A DNA stretch of 32,642 bases from Terriglobia bacterium (lineage in GTDB: Bacteria > Acidobacteriota > Terriglobia > Terriglobales > Acidobacteriaceae), in assembly GCA_020073185.1 (NCBI GenBank), contig JAIQFT010000049.1, positions 1-32,642 on the forward strand. Direction: 5' to 3'. This document shows, piece after piece, positions 693 to 28,186 of this stretch. The notes beneath the pieces were generated by a model. That model ran no database searches, had not been told where the DNA came from, and was given only the letters and a program-made list of their open reading frames with translations. Both the position numbers and the translations under genes were made by a program. Numbering within the stretch: position 1 is the first letter of the stretch; every line of letters starts with the position of its first letter.

Positions 693-716
693 GAACTGGA
701 ACTGAAACTGAAACTA
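693..716. repeat. Hexamer repeat overlapping the rplI stop codon
   Basis: Four consecutive 6-base units, GAACTG GAACTG AAACTG AAACTA, fill exactly 693-716. The last unit contains the complement of the rplI stop codon (714-716). It is a single-arm member of the short-period repeat class found in the other gaps of this gene cluster. Confidence 0.75.
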
Positions 717-1172
717 CTCCTCCGGCTCGGCTTCCTTTTGCACTTCCACTTTCACCTGCGCGGTGACGTCCTTGAACAGCCGTACCGGTACCTTAAACTC
801 GCCCAACGTCTTGAGCGGCTCATCCAGTTGGATCTTGCGGCGATCGATGTTGAAGCCTTTCTTTTCCAGCTCCGCCGCCAGGTCGCTCGACGTTACCGAC
901 CCGAACAACTCGTCGCGCTCGCCAGACCGGCGCTGGAACAGGATGCTCACGCCGGCCAGTTGCGCGGCCAGCGCCTCGGCGTCGGCCTTGTCTCTCTGCG
1001 TACGCCGGACGGAGGCCGCCTTCATCTGTTCGATCACCGACTTGTTCGCCTTTGTCGCCTCGATGGCGAGTTTTTTCGGCAGCAGGTAGTTGCGCCCGTA
1101 TCCTTCCGCGACCTTCACCACGTCGCCGCGCGAGCCCAGCTTGGGCACGTCTTCTTTCAGTATGACTTCCAT
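714..1172 (-). CDS. rplI: 50S ribosomal protein L9
   Basis: L9 binds 23S rRNA near the L1 stalk and helps hold reading frame. The protein begins MEVILKEDVPKLGSRGDVV, the diagnostic L9 N-terminal rRNA-binding domain with its GYGRNYLLPKKLA helix (about residues 24-36), followed by the long connecting helix and the C-terminal domain ending in an acidic tail. The length of 152 residues is normal. The ATG at 1172 is chosen because GGAGA at 1181-1185 sits eight bases upstream; an alternative TTG at 1178 is too close to it. It is the last gene of the rpsF-rpsR-rplI group. The dnaB gene that often follows in related genomes is absent here; a transposon remnant is present instead. Confidence 0.97.
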   Translation of the reverse strand: MEVILKEDVPKLGSRGDVVKVAEGYGRNYLLPKKLAIEATKANKSVIEQMKAASVRRTQRDKADAEALAAQLAGVSILFQRRSGERDELFGSVTSSDLAAELEKKGFNIDRRKIQLDEPLKTLGEFKVPVRLFKDVTAQVKVEVQKEAEPEE

Positions 1173-1190
1173 TTGCAAAATCTCCAGTGT

Positions 1191-1273
1191 CGAGTTTCTG
1201 GTTTCTAGTTTCTAGCTGGTCGAGTCCGCCGCACCGGGCCACTAGAAACTCGAAACTAGAAACTAGCGACTCG
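1191..1273. repeat. Inverted heptamer-repeat element between rpsR and rplI
   Basis: The left arm (1191-1216) is made of 7-base units of the AGTTTCT/GGTTTCT type. The right arm (1241-1273) is the complementary CTAGAAA/CTCGAAA series. The arms are largely complementary around a GC-rich centre of about 25 bases, so the transcript can fold into a long imperfect hairpin. It starts two bases after the rpsR stop codon (minus-strand direction). Confidence 0.8.
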
Positions 1274-1275
1274 TT

Positions 1276-1626
1276 TTAGGCGCGGCCCGCAAACGGCAGC
1301 AGCGCGATGTTTCGCGCCTGCTTGATCGCCGTGGAAAGCCGCCGCTGGTGCGGCGTGCACACGCCGGTCAGGCGCCGCGGCACAATCTTGCCGCTCTCCG
1401 CCACGAACTGCCCCAGCAGCCGGACGTCTTTGTAGTTGATCGAGTCAATCTTCTCGACGCAGAACTTGCACACTTTCTTGCGCCGGAAATACTTGCGGCC
1501 GCCTTCACGAGGACCGCCGGAACGCTGCGGACGCGGGCCGCGCGTCGGCGCTGCCGCTACGGCTGCGCTTGGTTCTCCGCCATCGGCTCCTGCCGGAGCC
1601 TGGCTACGGTTTGTTTCGTCTGCCAT
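1276..1626 (-). CDS. rpsR: 30S ribosomal protein S18, zinc-ligand type
   Basis: S18 is a primary partner of S6 on the platform of the small subunit. The core (about residues 45-110) shows [20 protein letters not shown] and the conserved [14 protein letters not shown] segment. The CxxC pair together with the later C-x-x-H gives four potential zinc ligands, as in the cysteine-bearing S18 form. The ATG at 1626 is preceded by AGAGGAATC. The N-terminus carries about 45 extra residues rich in Ala, Pro, Gly and Arg, giving 116 residues where about 75-90 is usual. It lies between rpsF and rplI; no ssb gene separates rpsF and rpsR. Confidence 0.96.
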
Positions 1627-1642
1627 GATTCCTCTCTGAAAC

Positions 1643-1734
1643 AGTTTCAAGTTTCTGGTTTCTAGTTCTCCAGATTCGAGCTGCGGTCGCGCGGAGCGGC
1701 CACTAGAAACTCGAAACCAGAAACTAGGAACTGG
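1643..1734. repeat. Inverted heptamer-repeat element between rpsF and rpsR
   Basis: The left arm (1643-1674) contains AGTTTCT, GGTTTCT and AGTTCTC units. The right arm (1701-1734) contains the complementary CTAGAAA, CTCGAAA and CCAGAAA units. The centre (1675-1700) is GC-rich. A 13-base stretch, AGTTTCTGGTTTC, is matched exactly by the complement of the right arm. The element starts three bases beyond the rpsF stop codon, and its rpsR side reaches to about ten bases from the rpsR ribosome site. Confidence 0.8.
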
Positions 1735-1737
1735 CGG

Positions 1738-2133
1738 TTACGCCGTTGCCGGCGCCGCTTCGCTGCCCGCCTCTGCTTCCGGCGCGGGTTTCGCCTTCAC
1801 CTTCGCGTCGCGCAAGGCCTTGATCTTGGCCAGCCGCTTCTGCTCTTCGTCCACGCGCACGGTGATGAACTTGATCACCGGCTCGGCGACGCGCAGGCGG
1901 CGCTCCAACTCGCGGACCACTTGCCCGCTGCCTTCCATGGTAAACAGCACATACATGCCGTCCTGGAAGCCGCGCACCAGGTACGCCAGCCGCCGCTTGC
2001 CCATGCGTTCCACGTTCCTCAGCGTCCCGCCGGCGGTGCTCACCTGCGATTCCAGGGTGGAAATCAGTTTGTCCAGGTCTTCCTCGGCCATGTCGGACCG
2101 CACGATAAACATCAGTTCGTAGGTACGTTGCAT
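1738..2133 (-). CDS. rpsF: 30S ribosomal protein S6
   Basis: S6 binds S18 and 16S rRNA at the platform. The sequence opens MQRTYELMFIVRSDMAEEDL, the first strand and helix of the S6 ferredoxin-like fold, and contains MGKRRLAYLVRGFQDGMYVL and the final RVDEEQKR strand. The length of 131 residues exceeds the roughly 95-residue core because of a C-terminal Lys then Ala/Glu/Pro-rich tail. The start at 2133 is supported by GGAGAAGGCGA directly upstream; the open frame extends further back to 2205, but that part is repeat-derived sequence. First of the S6-S18-L9 trio. Confidence 0.97.
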   Translation of the reverse strand: MQRTYELMFIVRSDMAEEDLDKLISTLESQVSTAGGTLRNVERMGKRRLAYLVRGFQDGMYVLFTMEGSGQVVRELERRLRVAEPVIKFITVRVDEEQKRLAKIKALRDAKVKAKPAPEAEAGSEAAPATA

Positions 2134-2150
2134 TCGCCTTCTCCGCGATA

Positions 2151-2180
2151 GCTGCCAGCCATCAGCCTTCAGCCACCAGC
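2151..2180. repeat. Heptamer repeat upstream of rpsF
   Basis: Four 7-base units, GCTGCCA GCCATCA GCCTTCA GCCACCA, run from 2151 to 2178. On the coding strand they read as TGGTGGC/TGAAGGC-type units lying between the pth stop and the rpsF ribosome site. No convincing second arm is seen, although 2200-2223 carries related but degenerate sequence directly after the pth stop. Confidence 0.65.
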
Positions 2181-2223
2181 AAAAACTCTCTTGTTCGCAA
2201 TTCACCAGCTCGGAACTTGCAAC

Positions 2224-2814
2224 TCATTCGTCCGCAGCCGCGCCGCTTGCCTTTCGGTTAAACCGGTTCATCGCCGCCGCGGCGCCTTCGCTGAAGATCA
2301 CCTTCACTGCTTCGGCGGCGGCATCCAGTTCCTGGTCCACCACCTCGTACTGCGACTTCTTCAACTGCGACAGCACGTACTTGGCGCCGTCGTTCACCGG
2401 AAACTCCGGGCCGATTCCCAGCCGGATGCGCAGAAACTCCTGCGTCCCCAGCGCGTTCACCACCGACTCCAGCCCGTTGTGCCCCGCCGTCCCGCCGCGC
2501 TGCCGGACACGAATCGTGCCCCAGGGCAGATCGAGCTCGTCGTAAATCACCACCAGGTCGCGTGTCGGCTCCACTTCGAGCTCGCTAGCCAACTCTCGCA
2601 CTGCCAGCCCGCTCAGGTTCATGTACGTCTCGGGCTTGGCCAGCACCACTTCTTCCGGACCGATGCGCGTTTTCCCGGTCAGCGCCCGGCAGCGCCGGTT
2701 GTTGACCTCAGCCCCGTACTGCTCGGCCAGTCGGTCCACCGCCAGGAACCCGAGGTTGTGCGGCGTGAACTGGTACTCGATACCGGGATTTCCAAGTCCC
2801 ACGACCAGCTTCAT
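2224..2814 (-). CDS. pth: Peptidyl-tRNA hydrolase
   Basis: Cleaves the ester bond of peptidyl-tRNA released from stalled ribosomes, freeing tRNA and peptide. The start MKLVVGLGNPG carries the family Asn (residue 9), and TPHNLGF supplies the catalytic His (residue 19). KPETYMNLSG, YDELDLPWG and GGTAGHNGLESV follow in the usual order; RIRLGIG closes the substrate cleft. The 196 residues match the family. The ATG at 2814 is preferred over a TTG at 2832 because homologues begin here, although no strong ribosome site is visible for either. It lies between rplY and rpsF in one direction, consistent with a translation cluster. Confidence 0.96.
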   Translation of the reverse strand: MKLVVGLGNPGIEYQFTPHNLGFLAVDRLAEQYGAEVNNRRCRALTGKTRIGPEEVVLAKPETYMNLSGLAVRELASELEVEPTRDLVVIYDELDLPWGTIRVRQRGGTAGHNGLESVVNALGTQEFLRIRLGIGPEFPVNDGAKYVLSQLKKSQYEVVDQELDAAAEAVKVIFSEGAAAAMNRFNRKASGAAADE

Positions 2815-2820
2815 GCCGTC

Positions 2821-2881
2821 AGTCAGTTTCAAGCTTCAGTTTCAGTTTCAGTTCACCGACCTGAAACGCGAAACTGAAACT
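2821..2881. repeat. Inverted hexamer-repeat element between rplY and pth
   Basis: The left arm carries three successive 6-base units, CAGTTT CAGTTT CAGTTC (2837-2854), and the right arm CTGAAACGCGAAACTGAAAC (2861-2880) is its complement type. The right arm runs directly into the rplY stop codon (2880-2882), so the repeat supplies part of the stop. The loop is only about seven bases. Confidence 0.75.
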
Positions 2882-3617
2882 ATTTCTTCTCCTTCTTCTC
2901 GCCCTTTTCCGGCTTCTCGGCCTTTTCCGGAGCAACCTCGGCGCCTTCCTCGGCCGTTTCCTGCTTGCCTTTCTTGATAACCTCGGGCTCGGCCGGCGTG
3001 ACGGCAGCTTCGGCGGCCACGGCTTCCGGAGTCGGCGCAGCTTCTTCCTTCACCGACGTAACGTGAGCCACCACTTGGTCGGCCGGCGTGATCATACGCA
3101 CTTTGCCGCGGTCCACCGGCAGGTCGCTCACGCGCAGCACCTCGCCGAACACCAGGTGCGAAACGTCGGCGTCGACGTGGCTCGGAATATCGCCCGGCAG
3201 GCACTCCACTTCGACTTCGCGCAGCACCTGGTCTAGAATTCCGCCCTGCTGCTTCACGCCCGCCGCTTCGCCCTTCAGCGCGATCGGTACCTTCACCTTC
3301 AGGCGCTGGTCCATGGCAATGCGCTTCAGGTCCAGGTGCAGCAGCGCTCCCCGGATCGGCTCCCACTGCCACTCGACGATCATCGCCTTGCTGCGCTCGC
3401 CGTCCAGGTGCAAATCGAAAATCGTGTTGTATCCCGACTCCGAGTGCAGAATGCGCGTGATCTGCTTTGGATCCACGCTCACCGACACCGGCGGTTTGCC
3501 GGCGCCATACACCACGGCGGGCACCTTCCCGCTCTTGCGCACGCGGCGCGCGACGTTCTTCCCCTTCGCCTCCCGCACCTGTGCTTCCACTACGTTGGGT
3601 TCTGTTGTTGTAGCCAT
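2880..3617 (-). CDS. rplY: 50S ribosomal protein L25/CTC family
   Basis: Binds 5S rRNA in the large subunit. The N-terminal L25 domain (about residues 8-97) shows EAQVREAKGKNVARRVRKSG, the VPAVVYGAGKPP turn and IVEWQWEPIRGALLHLDLKRI. The C-terminal CTC/TL5 beta domain (about residues 98-190) contains GEAAGVKQQGGILDQVLREV and LPGDIPSHVDADVS. A Glu/Lys/Ala-rich tail of about 45 residues ends the protein. The ATG at 3617 has a GGAAATT just upstream. It lies between prs and pth; the prs-rplY-pth order is common in many bacteria and supports the call. Confidence 0.95.
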   Translation of the reverse strand: MATTTEPNVVEAQVREAKGKNVARRVRKSGKVPAVVYGAGKPPVSVSVDPKQITRILHSESGYNTIFDLHLDGERSKAMIVEWQWEPIRGALLHLDLKRIAMDQRLKVKVPIALKGEAAGVKQQGGILDQVLREVEVECLPGDIPSHVDADVSHLVFGEVLRVSDLPVDRGKVRMITPADQVVAHVTSVKEEAAPTPEAVAAEAAVTPAEPEVIKKGKQETAEEGAEVAPEKAEKPEKGEKKEKK

Positions 3618-3633
3618 AATTTCCAAGTCCTTC

Positions 3634-3647
3634 TCTGTGCTCTGTGC
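3634..3647. repeat. Two exact heptamers between prs and rplY
   Basis: TCTGTGC occurs twice in direct succession (3634-3640 and 3641-3647), in the 61-base gap between the prs stop and the rplY start. It is short, but has the same 7-base period and the same position in the gap as the longer elements nearby. Confidence 0.5.
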
Positions 3648-3678
3648 CCCCGGTCTCCAGCAATCCCCCACGGAATCT

Positions 3679-4773
3679 CTAGGTAAATAACCGGCTGACC
3701 GAGGTCTCCTCGTGGATGGACTGGATCGCCCGCGCGATCAGCCCCGCGATGGACAGCACCTTGATCTTCGGTTCGTTGCGCCCCGCCTCGCTCAGCGGGA
3801 TGGTATTCGTCACCACCACCTGCTCCAGCGGCGACTGCGAAATCCTCTCGATTGCCGGCCCCGACAGCACCGGATGCGTGGCGCATGCGACCACCTTTTT
3901 CGCGCCGCTTTCCAGCAGCGCGTTGGCCGTCTTCACCAGCGTGCCCGCAGTGTCAATGATGTCGTCGAGCAGCAAACACGTGCGGCCCTTCACGTCGCCG
4001 ATCACGTGCATCACCTCGGTCACATCCATCTCCACCCGCCGTTTGTCCACGATGGCCAACGCCGAATCCATCTTCTTGGCGAAGAACCGGGCGCGCTCCA
4101 CGCCACCCGCGTCCGGAGACACCACCGTCAGGTCCGGGTACGCCCGCTCCCGGTAGTAGCCCACCAGCACCGGCGAGGCGAACAAATGGTCCACCGGGAT
4201 GTTGAAAAACCCCTGGATTTGCGGTGCGTGCAGGTCCACGATCAGCGCGCGGTCGGCGCCCGCGGTGGTCAGCAGGTCCGCCACCAGCTTCGAACTGATC
4301 GGCGACCGCGGCTTGTCCTTGCGGTCCTGGCGCGCGTAGCCGTAATACGGGATCACCGGCGTGATGCGCCGCGCCGAGGCGCGTTTCAGCGCGTCAATCA
4401 TCAGCAGCAGCTCCATCAGGTGCGAATCCACCGGGTGGCACGTGGGCTGCAGCACGAAAACGTCCGCCCCGCGCACGTTCTCCAGGATCTGCACGTAGTG
4501 CTCCCCGTCGGAGAAGCGCGTGATCTGCGTCTGCCCGCGCGGAATGCCGAGGAACGCGCAGATTTCGTCTGCCAGCGCCGGGTTGGCCGTGCCGCAGAAA
4601 ATCTTCAGCCTGTCGTCGCTGCGCGCGCGCTCCGGTTTGCGCACCTTCGCCTGCGTCGCGGCGTCTTCTTTCCTTTGCGTGGTCGTTGCCACCGTTGTCG
4701 CCATCACGTTGCTCGCTGCTGTACGCATCTCAGTGGGATTGACTGCCTGGCTCGGCTTGTGTCCCGTCTGCAT
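3679..4773 (-). CDS. prs: Ribose-phosphate pyrophosphokinase (PRPP synthetase)
   Basis: Makes 5-phosphoribosyl diphosphate from ribose 5-phosphate and ATP, feeding purine, pyrimidine, His, Trp and NAD synthesis (nadC, a PRPP user, is also in this window). Visible motifs in order: [30 protein letters not shown], the [20 protein letters not shown] region of the ATP site, [12 protein letters not shown] with the metal-binding His, the VDKRR flexible loop, and the PRPP loop [13 protein letters not shown]. The protein is 364 residues from the first start at 4773, about 50 longer than the usual 315; alternative ATGs at 4728 and 4704 would trim the Ala/Thr-rich extension. None has a strong ribosome site, so the start is uncertain. 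Confidence 0.95.
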
Positions 4774-4805
4774 GAAAGCTCTTAGCCATTGGCGCTTACC
4801 AATTA

Positions 4806-4870
4806 GCTGGTTTCGACTGACTCCAAGCTTCTCGCCCTCTTACTCGAAACTCGCAACCAGACACTGGTTC
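4806..4870. repeat. Heptamer repeat and hairpin just 3' of tRNA-Gln
   Basis: Units CTCGAAA CTCGCAA CCAGACA CTGGTTC run 4843-4870, with a looser complementary arm at 4806-4816 (CTGGTTTCGA). Inside it, AACCAG (4855-4860) and CTGGTT (4864-4869) form a perfect 6-bp hairpin with a 3-base loop, two bases from the encoded CCA end of tRNA-Gln in the direction of transcription. Confidence 0.65.
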
Positions 4871-4871
4871 T

Positions 4872-4945
4872 TGGCTGGGCGGCCAGGATTCGAACCTGGA
4901 CAAAGTGCTCCAAAGGCACTTGACCTACCATTAGTCGACCGCCCA
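4872..4945 (-). tRNA. tRNA-Gln (anticodon TTG)
   Basis: On the minus strand the acceptor arm TGGGCGG (from 4945) pairs perfectly with CCGCCCA (4882-4876), followed by discriminator G and an encoded CCA at 4874-4872. The T arm is CCAGG-TTCGAAT-CCTGG. The anticodon stem AGTGC/GCACT encloses the loop CTTTGGA, giving anticodon TTG at 4913-4911. The U at position 1 is typical of bacterial tRNA-Gln. It lies between ispE and prs in the same orientation and is probably cotranscribed with them. Confidence 0.96.
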
Positions 4946-4953
4946 ACCCTACT

Positions 4954-5041
4954 TGCCGATTGGGTGAATTGGTGATTGGGCGATTGGCAAGCATTCCGGT
5001 TTCCCATCGCCAAATCAGCAAATCGGTAAATCAGCAAATCA
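4954..5041. repeat. Inverted octamer-repeat element between ispE and tRNA-Gln
   Basis: The left arm (4957-4988) reads in 8-base units CGATTGGG TGAATTGG TGATTGGG CGATTGGC. The right arm (5009-5041) reads AAATCAGC AAATCGGT AAATCAGC AAATC, the complementary type. On the minus strand the right arm begins with TGATTTGC, whose TGA is the stop codon of ispE (5041-5039). The period here is 8, not 7 or 6 as in the neighbouring gaps. Confidence 0.8.
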
Positions 5042-19919: not shown

Positions 19920-21401
19920 GTGGCGCTAAAGGTACTTCTAGCGGACGACAATATCACTGCCCAGAAGATGGGCTGCAAGATCCTCAGCGACGCCGGCTAC
20001 ATTGTGGTCGCGGTCAGCAACGGCGCGGCCGCGATGAAGAAGATCGTGGCGGAAAAGCCGGAGCTCATCATCCTCGATGTTTACATGCCGGGCTATAGCG
20101 GCCTGGAAGTCTGCGAAAAGGTGAAAAACGCGGCCGAAACGGCGCAGGTGCCGGTGCTGCTGACGGTGGCCCCCATGGAGCCGTTCAACGCTGCGGACGG
20201 CAACCGGGTGAGGGCCGACGGGGTGCTGACCAAGCCGTTCTTGCCCACCGATCTGCTCGCCGTGGTGCGCAAATTCGAGGAGAAAATCCATCCTCCGGCG
20301 CCGCCGGAAGCGGGAAAGGCCGCCGGGATGCCGGCGCTGCAGGAATTCGAGGACGAAAGCTACGCCGAGTGGAAGGCGGGGGCCGCGCCCGAGGATGATG
20401 CCGCCGCCAAAGCGCCGGAGATGTCGCAGGAAGTGGCGTCTGCGCCTGCGCTGGGGATCGAACATTTGGAGGCCGTACCGGCAAGACCTGTGCCGGAGTT
20501 TGGGGTGGAAGCAGCGCCCGCCGCCTATGCGGCAGAGAGTCAACCGCAAACGTTTGATTTGAGTGCGCCCTCGCCGGTTTTCGACCTGGACCATACCGAA
20601 GCGGCAGTGCTTGCGCCGCCGGCGGAGTTGGAGTTTACCTCGGCGCCGCGAACTGCGGCGATGGACGTACCGCCCGCGGCGGAACTGGAAGTCACGGCGC
20701 AGGAATCGGCAGCACAGGTGCCGATTGTGCAGGACGCGGCGCTGGTCACCAATCCGTCGGACATCACGCAATTCGCCACCAAGTTCGGCCAGGAGCATCC
20801 GGAGGACGTACCGGTCGGAATCGTCATGGAGCAGCCGCCCGAAGAGATGGAACTGGAAGTTGAGTCGCGCGCCCCTGTCGACGATTCTCTGCCGGAAACA
20901 CCCAATCCGCATTGGGGCGATCCGGACGTGAGGGATGCTTTGGGGTTCTCCGGCGGGGCTCCCGCCGCAGCGCCCGCGCCTGAAGCCGAGCCGCAACCTG
21001 AGGTCGGGGTGAAAACGCAACGGCTGCAAGCCGTGCCGGAAGCGGAGGTCGGAATGGATACGCAACCGCTGGAGGTTTCGCCCGAGCCGGAAACAGGAAT
21101 CGCGGAAATGATGGCGCCGCACCCCGAAGCCGTGTCGGCGGAAAGCGCGGCGGCGGCCGCTGCTGCTGAGACCCACAACCTTACGCAACAACTCGTGGCT
21201 CAATTCGCGGCCGAATTGGAAGCGGCGCAGAAGCAAGCGCCGCCGGCGCCCGCGCCGCAGCCGGAGATGGAGCCTCCTGCACAAGCGGCGTTCGCGGTTG
21301 CGGTCCCGGACGAACAGCGTCTCGCGCAAGCGGTCAGCCGCGTGCTGGAGCGGTATCAAGGCGTACTGATCGCGGCGATCGTGAAGGAACTAAAATCGTA
21401 G
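19920..21401 (+). CDS. Receiver-domain response regulator with long disordered C-terminus
   Basis: Residues 1-118 form a CheY-like receiver: acidic pair D9/D10 in LLADDN, phosphoacceptor D53 in IILDVYMPG, T82 in LLTVAP and K105 in LTKPF. No DNA-binding or enzymatic output domain follows. Instead about 340 residues are rich in Glu, Pro, Ala and Val, with imperfect 15-18 residue repeats (EVGVKTQRLQAV, then EVGMDTQPLEVS, then ETGIAEMMA), ending in an amphipathic helix (RLAQAVSRVLERYQGVLIAA). The GTG start at 19920 has AGAGG eight bases upstream. It probably works through protein contacts; its kinase is not in the window. Length is 493 residues. Confidence 0.85.
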   Translation: MALKVLLADDNITAQKMGCKILSDAGYIVVAVSNGAAAMKKIVAEKPELIILDVYMPGYSGLEVCEKVKNAAETAQVPVLLTVAPMEPFNAADGNRVRADGVLTKPFLPTDLLAVVRKFEEKIHPPAPPEAGKAAGMPALQEFEDESYAEWKAGAAPEDDAAAKAPEMSQEVASAPALGIEHLEAVPARPVPEFGVEAAPAAYAAESQPQTFDLSAPSPVFDLDHTEAAVLAPPAELEFTSAPRTAAMDVPPAAELEVTAQESAAQVPIVQDAALVTNPSDITQFATKFGQEHPEDVPVGIVMEQPPEEMELEVESRAPVDDSLPETPNPHWGDPDVRDALGFSGGAPAAAPAPEAEPQPEVGVKTQRLQAVPEAEVGMDTQPLEVSPEPETGIAEMMAPHPEAVSAESAAAAAAAETHNLTQQLVAQFAAELEAAQKQAPPAPAPQPEMEPPAQAAFAVAVPDEQRLAQAVSRVLERYQGVLIAAIVKELKS

Positions 21402-28101: not shown

Positions 28102-28102
28102 C

Positions 28103-28186
28103 AGTCGCCAGTTTCTGGTTTCTAGTTTCTCGTTCACGCTTCGGCGGGTCGATCTGGAAACTTGAAACCGGAAACCGGAAACTTTT
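28103..28186. repeat. Inverted heptamer-repeat element between valS and nadC
   Basis: The left arm (28109-28131) consists of AGTTTCT, GGTTTCT and AGTTTCT units. The right arm (28154-28182) consists of GGAAACT, TGAAACC and GGAAACC units. Allowing G-U pairs, the arms can pair along about 20 bases in RNA. It starts two bases after the valS stop, and the right arm ends about 10 bases before the nadC ATG, so it supplies the purine-rich sequence upstream of nadC. Confidence 0.8.

Follow-up and report, generated by a model that had tools for sequence, protein, structure and literature searches.

Introduction

Tandem words of six to eight bases between genes are known in several bacteria and have no accepted explanation in the literature cited here. 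The closest precedent that we found for the elements described below is a set of paired "predicted global regulator binding sites" in Geobacter metallireducens. In the parts of that account used here, classes 1–3 comprise 24, 21 and 8 pairs, insertion sequences at a fixed distance are described for class 1 sites, and a different repeated sequence is reported from the proBA gap of G. sulfurreducens (PMC2700814). We analysed a stretch of 32,642 nucleotides from a Terriglobia bacterium of the Acidobacteriota (contig JAIQFT010000049.1 of assembly GCA_020073185.1, positions 1 to 32,642; hereafter the window), in which the gaps of a minus-strand ribosomal gene cluster hold short-period arrays. A typical two-armed element of this class has inverted arms of one repeated word flanking an individual loop.

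The elements have one anatomy, fall into word families and lie mainly between co-directional genes; their slots are conserved between congeners while the words turn over, orientation is mostly fixed per word, loops are hardly shared and the arms are not mirror copies of each other. They are tentatively best read as dispersed intercistronic elements resembling repetitive extragenic palindromic (REP) sequences, which would be built of words rather than of one fixed body, the word being supplied in trans.

The Geobacter sites are likewise opposite-strand pairs at variable distance, each with 3–5 tandem hepta- or octanucleotides and in several classes (PMC2700814), and 71 inverted pairs with loops of at most 120 nt and periods of 6, 7 and 8 were collected here. 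The Geobacter class word TCTCCGTS, as given there, also resembles the TCTCCGTG arrays that we found at L050 and L068 (PMC2700814; L-numbers denote individual sampled stretches or loci). Compared by description, that account has three classes, read as regulator sites, whereas dozens of words occur here; the parts of it that were compared contain no analysis of words slot by slot, of orientation or of core and spacer (PMC2700814). New here are the stock of many words, the exchange of words at conserved slots, an orientation specific to each word, the core/spacer structure, and the slippage and mirror tests. A search of open-licence papers, by titles and the starts of abstracts, gave no account of the class in Acidobacteriota.

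Heterocystous cyanobacteria carry short tandemly repeated repetitive (STRR) heptamers in intergenic, direct arrays, which our elements resemble as intergenic heptamer arrays; we know of no inverted pairing of STRR heptamers. The TAACTGA heptamers of Beggiatoaceae also form intergenic arrays, some in ribosomal operons and patchy across lineages, but in the sections of that paper used here they are one word, almost only direct (one inverted case) and mostly just before start codons, not behind stops (PMC4679880). Direct arrays alone, as in these two systems, are not what we see, as 98 of 212 arrays have an inverted partner. REP sequences and bacterial interspersed mosaic elements (BIMEs) are, like our elements, dispersed intergenic palindromes, some of them near stop codons (446 of 4,072 E. 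coli REPs within 15 nt), and REPs are thought to act as RNA. As described in the portions of the two papers used here, REPs are 20–40 bp long, have sequence in common and carry GTAG or CGTC at an end, whereas our elements have tandem-word arms, individual loops and no consistent Y1 transposase neighbour (PMC3733652, PMC12306157). DRT10, according to the part of the report used here, makes tandem repeats of a short word from an RNA template, with varied word lengths; this is an enzymatic parallel to our arrays, but its product is cDNA in phage defence and not a chromosomal element (PMC12632851).

Materials and methods

The window is contig 49 of the Terriglobia genome G000 (assembly of 4.66 Mb in 121 contigs). 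The congeners compared were G001, G002 and G003, and G001 is the closest relative found, its RpsF being about 94–95% identical to that of the window. The genome scan covered the window plus 60 stretches (1.23 Mb), later 1.43 Mb with ten more (L121–L130, picked by contig number). Gap arrays were detected by lag identity at a fixed threshold in 777 gaps (218,741 bases), with five shuffles as control. Gaps of the window were tested against 1000 dinucleotide shuffles of the same gap for the period score and against 100 shuffles for inverted arms, and Tandem Repeats Finder (TRF) was run too. Nearness to stops and starts was evaluated in co-directional gaps of 30–400 nt against 1000 random placements within the same gaps, and slot counts left out gaps of more than 700 bases with flanks and very short gaps. 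Of the 71 inverted pairs (loops up to 120 nt), 41 come from this genome, 24 from G002, 6 from G001 and none from the G003 stretches.

Abundance and anatomy of the arrays

Lag detection gave 93 gap arrays of period 7 (81 gaps), 29 of period 8 (26 gaps) and 10 of period 6 (10 gaps), and the corresponding shuffle means were 0.2, 0 and 0, so that a chance origin was rejected. Periods of 3–5 were not seen in gaps; period 9 gave 2 arrays, periods 9–13 two to four each, period 14, the double of 7, gave 53, and period 15 gave 8. The coding sequence (967,850 bases) held 39 period-6 arrays, 12 of period 7 and none of period 8. A 19-base pattern allowing at most three mismatches had 98 matches in the whole genome vs 2 for the reversed control, overlapping windows being counted in both. 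An assembly artefact was also rejected, since the class is present in several species and assemblies.

An inverted two-unit partner (at least 80% match) lay within 110 nt of 98 of the 212 arrays, whereas a unit of another family, used as control, gave 1 of 212. The loops had a mean length of 33 nt and a G+C content of 0.59 against 0.61–0.62 for the sampled genome, so the centre called GC-rich in the first-pass annotation of the window is not so by the standard of this genome. In heptamers and octamers an almost constant core is accompanied by one to three freer spacer bases. Across 98 AAACTAG-family units of this genome and G002, GAAAC was conserved at 0.98–1.00 and the two spacer bases at 0.68 and 0.46; the last base of AACCGAT (0.37) and the third (0.53) and first (0.70) bases of AAGAGCT were the variable ones. 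The spacer AC of the GTTTC family is common in G002 and rare in this genome, and each species has its own spacer stock.

The same words were found at many loci, and dozens of words in one genome. A 9-mer common to both inner loops was present in 2 of 56 same-family pairs, each of which occupies slots that are orthologous by position, and in 3 of 934 other pairs. For 21 of the 41 elements of this genome, a non-self hit within the sampled third of the genome spanned arm, loop and arm. The best such hits were 88% over 67 bases, 81% over 43 and 79.5% over 88, with the remainder at 70–79%, and 18 of the 21 elements reached at best less than 80% over at least 57 bases. The word is thus common property and the body mostly is not, and the local exceptions look like duplication or conversion between neighbours. 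The shared hairpin with a GTAG or CGTC end of the REP/BIME type moved by REP-associated tyrosine transposases is not seen, as loops are hardly shared and many words are unrelated. Nor is the common body with shared terminal inverted repeats of a miniature inverted-repeat transposable element (MITE), apart from one pair within a gap (88%) and two window neighbours (79.5%). Ordinary MITE or REP families do not combine a genome-wide word with bodies that are mostly unshared, and this combination favours supply of the word in trans. The rpsR-rplI gap of G001 and G002 (L070, L071) holds a hybrid element with a first arm of AGTGGCC heptamers and a second arm of GATCACCC octamers, and therefore arms can be acquired separately.

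Location relative to genes

Among gaps of 20–600 nt, an array was present in 138 of 544 co-directional, 19 of 110 convergent and 17 of 123 divergent gaps (co-directional vs the rest, p 0.0026). The S10-spc-alpha region (L042), which we take to be such from the starts of its proteins, had 20 of its 24 co-directional gaps filled, vs 118 of 520 elsewhere (p 1.6e-9). Intrinsic terminators are disfavoured as an explanation by this filling of gaps inside the region. Array starts lay within 15 nt of a stop codon in 69 of 165 cases, vs 41.4 ± 5.0 for random placement (maximum of the trials 57), a proximity like that of REPs, and 28 arrays overlapped the stop, vs 13.7 ± 3.5. Position is therefore not random relative to stops. 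The view of the first-pass annotation, a single class of shared architecture linked to stop codons and the ends of gaps, is borne out, the link to stops being partial.

Slots compared among congeners

The gene order rplY-pth-rpsF-rpsR-rplI was found in 30 of 30 loci of relatives examined, the own locus included. Slot occupancy was tied across species, with odds ratios of 11.7 (G001), 11.3 (G002) and 13.1 (G003). Slots filled in both genomes numbered 45, 35 and 16 with G001, G002 and G003; the word was the same in 21, 13 and 2 of them, vs 3.0, 3.3 and 1.0 for shuffled slots, and the G003 count of 2 is not above its null maximum of 4. An example of word exchange is the slot after L042 16585, where AGTGATTT octamers stand in this genome, AGTCGTT in G001, AATTTGT in G002 and AAACGCG in G003. 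In 13 pairwise comparisons with two arms in both genomes, which are not independent and of which one (window 4707) sets elements from separate parts of a long gap side by side, the word was the same in 6 and different in 7; when it differed, both arms differed together. Sister genomes thus keep the architecture and periodicity of the gaps while the unit often changes, in line with the first-pass annotation.

Whole-unit gains and losses between species also occur. Nine comparisons of filled and empty slots, read by eye, gave no constant target-site duplication at borders, which were too diverged. Flanking genes were 93.2% identical at swapped and 93.4% at same-word slots with G001, and 87.3 vs 86.3% with G002. 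Import of foreign alleles by homologous recombination is unsupported by the near-equal G001 values. Several other genera have short gaps without an array (e.g. L078, L082, L083, L086 and L088 at rplY-pth) and others have longer gaps without arrays; the element is dispensable there.

In the aligned arrays, positions varying between units diverged about two times faster between species than invariant ones (0.238 vs 0.124 with G001, 0.304 vs 0.152 with G002), a ratio of 1.9–2.0 against 1.1–1.6 in a neutral simulation with the same filters. An initial test with a larger contrast (0.056 vs 0.211), which demanded arrays in both species, is superseded by these values.

Arm orientation

The T/G-rich arm came first in 62 of the 71 pairs, 5 were neutral and 4 reversed. 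For the 17 words seen more than once, all 45 members agreed in orientation, some members being orthologues. A search for the GTTTC element in 396 genomes of the phylum found it T-rich-first in 14 genomes (97 matches, with overlapping windows counted) and reversed in one (56 matches), and no genome had it in both orientations. Reversed sequences, used as controls for the two orientations, also gave hits (13 matches in 4 genomes and 25 in 9), and these were elements of core CTTTG. The A-rich-first places of this core all had GGACTTT-type arms, while the T-rich-first ones had mostly GGTCTTT (G233) or GATCTTT/GACCTTT (G193), with GGACTTT-type units mixed in at several. A general rule of the T/G-rich arm first was rejected, as words such as CACGGAG, and all of genome G167, are reversed. 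Orientation follows the word more closely than the genome and is nearly always fixed per word. Stretches of G387, G233 and G167 had arrays in gaps, several of them straight after stops and one in what was taken by eye to be a ribosomal cluster.

Tests of slippage and arm copying

The first-pass annotation offered polymerase slippage plus template switching on different seeds, or an enzyme-driven element, as the process behind the arrays. In the GTTTC family, identical neighbouring spacers were found in 11 of 108 pairs vs 16.5 expected (P of so few 0.08), made up of 6 of 61 in this genome (10.2 expected) and 5 of 47 in G002 (7.2 expected). Pattern detection does not favour identity in this test, and the pairs are partly dependent, as triples overlap; in a smaller sample the count was 7 of 70 vs 10.0 expected. 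In lag-detected period-7 arrays, neighbour likeness was 0.556 vs 0.447 after shuffling, a detection that itself selects for likeness. The arms did not mirror each other, with a best-register identity of 0.875 vs 0.871 for shuffled unit order (z 0.67; 47 of the 71 pairs had enough units), and their lengths were uncorrelated (rho 0.12, p 0.33). Symmetric palindrome formation would not give the nearly always fixed orientation per word. The parts of the proposal that relied on different seeds and on slippage plus template switching agree poorly with words that recur across loci, neighbours that are not unusually alike, unmirrored arms, hardly shared loops and the orientation. An older slippage followed by decay would still be compatible with the data.

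Elements of the window

Of the eight gaps in which the first-pass annotation had placed arrays, six held an array nearly unmatched by shuffles (0/1000 after rplI and in rpsR-rplI, rpsF-rpsR, rplY-pth and ispE-tRNA; 1/1000 in pth-rpsF), while the arrays at prs-rplY (7/1000, two copies) and tRNA-Gln (24/1000) were weak. TRF and inverted-repeat analysis, taken with the shuffles, bear out the same six. The inverted arms that it had described in several gaps were significant in four (0/100 shuffles each in rpsR-rplI, rpsF-rpsR and ispE-tRNA, 1/100 in rplY-pth) and, with 100 shuffles, not in the other four. The unit, which it described as differing between gaps, does not vary freely, as the arrays of rpsR-rplI, rpsF-rpsR, rplY-pth, post-rplI and 28.1 kb have the common core GTTTC/GAAAC. 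The elements are listed in Table 1.

Table 1 Short-period elements of the window, with positions in the 32,642-nt stretch
Feature	Position	Strand	Arms and loop	Remarks
Single hexamer arm AGTTTC after rplI	693..716	-		Begins at rplI stop TAG; 0/1000 shuffles; inverted arm not significant; TRF 694-715
rpsR-rplI element, heptamer arms AGTTTCT	1186..1271	-	Arms 1186-1215 and 1242-1271; loop 1216-1241	RNA fold z -3.8
rpsF-rpsR element, heptamer arms	1642..1733	-	Arms 1642-1667 and 1702-1733, loop between	RNA fold z -3.9
Single heptamer arm of GCTGATG type upstream of rpsF	2153..2180	-		1/1000 shuffles
rplY-pth element, hexamer arms	2821..2882	-	Arms ~2823-2853 and 2861-2881	Overlaps rplY stop TAG; RNA fold z -4.8
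Two CTCTGTG copies between prs and rplY	3633..3647	-		Weak, doubtful member; 7/1000 shuffles; no inverted arm
Degenerate inverted stretch, tRNA-Gln to prs	4806..4870	-		Doubtful in this genome; 24/1000 shuffles
ispE-tRNA element, octamer arms	4957..5041	-	Arms 4957-4987 and 5011-5041	Overlaps ispE stop TGA; RNA fold z -2.9
Additional element of the class	28110..28182	+	28110-28134 and 28156-28182	TRF; paired arms found; RNA fold z -1.3

At 28.1 kb the inverted score of the gap stretch 28102-28161 was not significant (72/100 shuffles), and this stretch cuts the second arm. In the congeners, the rpsR-rplI slot has other words in G001 and G002. The rpsF-rpsR slot has the same element in G001, a hexamer element in G002 and a different heptamer in G003, and the rplY-pth slot has hexamers in G001 and G002 and heptamers in G003. 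A related single arm stands at the place of the GCTGATG arm in all three congeners. The tRNA-Gln/prs gap of G001 holds arms CGGTTCT/AACCGAG, and alignment showed that the ispE element of G001 has exactly one 8-mer fewer in each of both arms. An Rfam scan of the window matched tRNA only.

Search for an agent

The genome has 12 Y1_Tnp matches, and word arrays lay within about 1 kb at just 2 of the 11 places examined; a third has a G-rich run only. Its sole RVT_1 match, G000:C92:10089-10709 (L195), carries a GIIM domain and is a group II intron protein. Each other congener has one RVT_1 match (G002:C1:303800-304117; G003:C16:9-323; G001:C255:6905-7195); those of G002 and G003 are at contig ends, and that of G002 is just downstream of a window-type ribosomal cluster. 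RVT_1 matches occurred in 10 of the 25 genomes searched. G004 has arrays and no RVT_1 match, a search that could miss a divergent reverse transcriptase. As for a DRT10-type enzyme, only the group II intron RVT_1 was seen, and template RNA was sought no further than by Rfam on the window.

Ku was present in 10 of 17 array-bearing genomes vs 6 of 19 others, and absent from G387, G310 and others among the bearing ones. Of the bearing genomes, G001 and G003 came from array scans and the other fifteen from the 396-genome GTTTC search, and G301 is only 72% complete; the 19 others are defined only by the absence of a GTTTC-pattern hit, and in one of them, G045, the reversed control did match. A search with two elements gave no plasmid match. 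The enzyme-driven element suggested in the first-pass annotation is compatible with the data, yet no enzyme was found.

Discussion

We tentatively prefer to read the arrays as dispersed, REP-like intercistronic elements made of words. A full element has two inverted arms, each a short core repeated at 6, 7 or 8 nt, around an individual loop of about 33 nt. Elements of this kind occupy co-directional gaps from directly behind the stop towards the next start, most densely in the ribosomal operons examined, and are gained, lost and exchanged at their slots as wholes. The word may come in trans from a template, a donor array or a word-specific factor. The elements are probably not essential but passengers, tolerated at intercistronic sites that permit them, and in mRNA their interrupted hairpins could act on the upstream gene, like E. 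coli REPs near stops.

Several observations weigh against this REP-like, word-built reading. Dozens of words per genome is a large number for a single factor, and Y1 transposase, reverse transcriptase and Ku-dependent end joining, tried as agents, gave no consistent partner. A clear second arm is found for only about half of the arrays, only 42% of arrays are stop-proximal, and nearness to the start codon is weak (75 vs 64.3 ± 5.6 random). The core constraint between species is only about two-fold, and hexamer AAACTG has no free spacer, every position being at least 0.91. Whole bodies can be alike: the rpsF-rpsR and rpsR-rplI elements of the window are 79.5% identical over 88 bases, loop included, and L009 2503-2683 holds two copies of a GTAGTCC-type element in one gap, 88% identical over 67 bases, which is a local duplication of a whole element. 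Core CTTTG occurs in both orientations in G233 (10 and 6) and G193 (2 and 1), mostly in different full words. Besides, genes were called by a simple home-made codon-usage caller (989, later 1,139 genes), the slot statistics rest heavily on one ribosomal region, and absolute array densities lean high, as several stretches were selected around pattern matches and some G001 contigs around repeat hits.

It is unlikely, in our estimate, that the elements are instead paired binding arrays for proteins that each recognise one word in DNA or RNA, the reading put forward for Geobacter metallireducens, the core being selected while spacers and loops drift. The core/spacer pattern and the slower divergence of invariant positions would suit such binding, as would orientation, the variable loop and independent arms; dozens of words in one genome would not, several relatives have short gaps without an array, and congeners that differ in word at one slot would require exchange of regulators inside ribosomal operons. 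Expansion of a local seed by slippage, with one arm copied into the other by hairpin template switching, seems to us about as unlikely. A unit of 6–8 is typical of long simple-sequence repeats, heptamers were the most abundant repeat class in most genomes studied in earlier work, and 7 nt may correspond to the polymerase contact length, as stated in the part of the source used here (PMC4679880). Whole units are gained and lost between species, including one 8-mer per arm of the ispE element, and lag-detected neighbours are alike, though detection favours likeness. However, pattern-detected neighbours are not more alike than expected, the arms are unmirrored with uncorrelated lengths, words are common to many loci, and orientation is mostly fixed per word.

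Two further explanations involve an enzyme. Telomerase-like, RNA-templated addition of one word at the two 3' ends of a break that is then joined would be a two-ended version of the DRT10 reaction, in which tandem repeats of varied word length are made from an RNA template (PMC12632851). It would predict what is observed: the same word in both arms, an orientation fixed per word, arms that are independent in length and in their variants, loops that are individual, and outer borders that are sharp. We regard it as improbable, since the lone RVT_1 match is an intron protein, G004 has arrays and no such match (a divergent enzyme could be missed), Ku is absent from array-bearing G387, G310 and others, and many words would need many templates. 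Ordinary REP or MITE copies with rapidly diverging bodies, mobilised by a Y1 or DDE transposase, would fit intergenic palindromes near stops, the 12 Y1_Tnp matches and the whole-element likenesses of 88% and 79.5%; they agree poorly with loops that are hardly shared, spanning hits mostly below 80% and word arrays near so few Y1 places (DDE transposases were not searched), and we hold this to be very improbable. To one bolder idea we give just as little credence: a system that writes a chosen 6–8-base word in tandem onto both facing 3' ends in gaps and then closes the gap, which would leave head-to-head arrays like fused telomeres, with own words per genome, an orientation per word and sites rewritten over species time.

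The same gap in congeners, filled yet often rewritten, is a test system in which local slippage can be told from supply in trans, and the agent becomes findable. Should the elements act on mRNA, the ribosomal operons of a soil-bacterial group would carry exchangeable hairpins at most of their joints.

Other repeats

Inverted arrays with a period of about 10 bases (CACGGATTTR... / ...ATCCGTGGC) were seen in the pth-rpsF gaps of L074, L076 and L079, in the rpsR-rplI gap of L074 and at L024 ~2927-3000; as these lie in the same kind of gap, the class may reach to decamers. Another dispersed GC-rich palindrome, of GCGCCGGGCTTTAGCCCGGCG type, lies in gaps beside arrays (L015 12524-12796, L021 10248-10382, L042 11722-11924). 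The pth-rpsF and rpsR-rplI gaps of G003 (L072) hold a different palindrome, of GGCGGAATTSATTCCGCC type, where congeners carry word arrays. A 45-base repeat in two copies is located at 20983-21071 of the window, inside the open frame 19920-21401.

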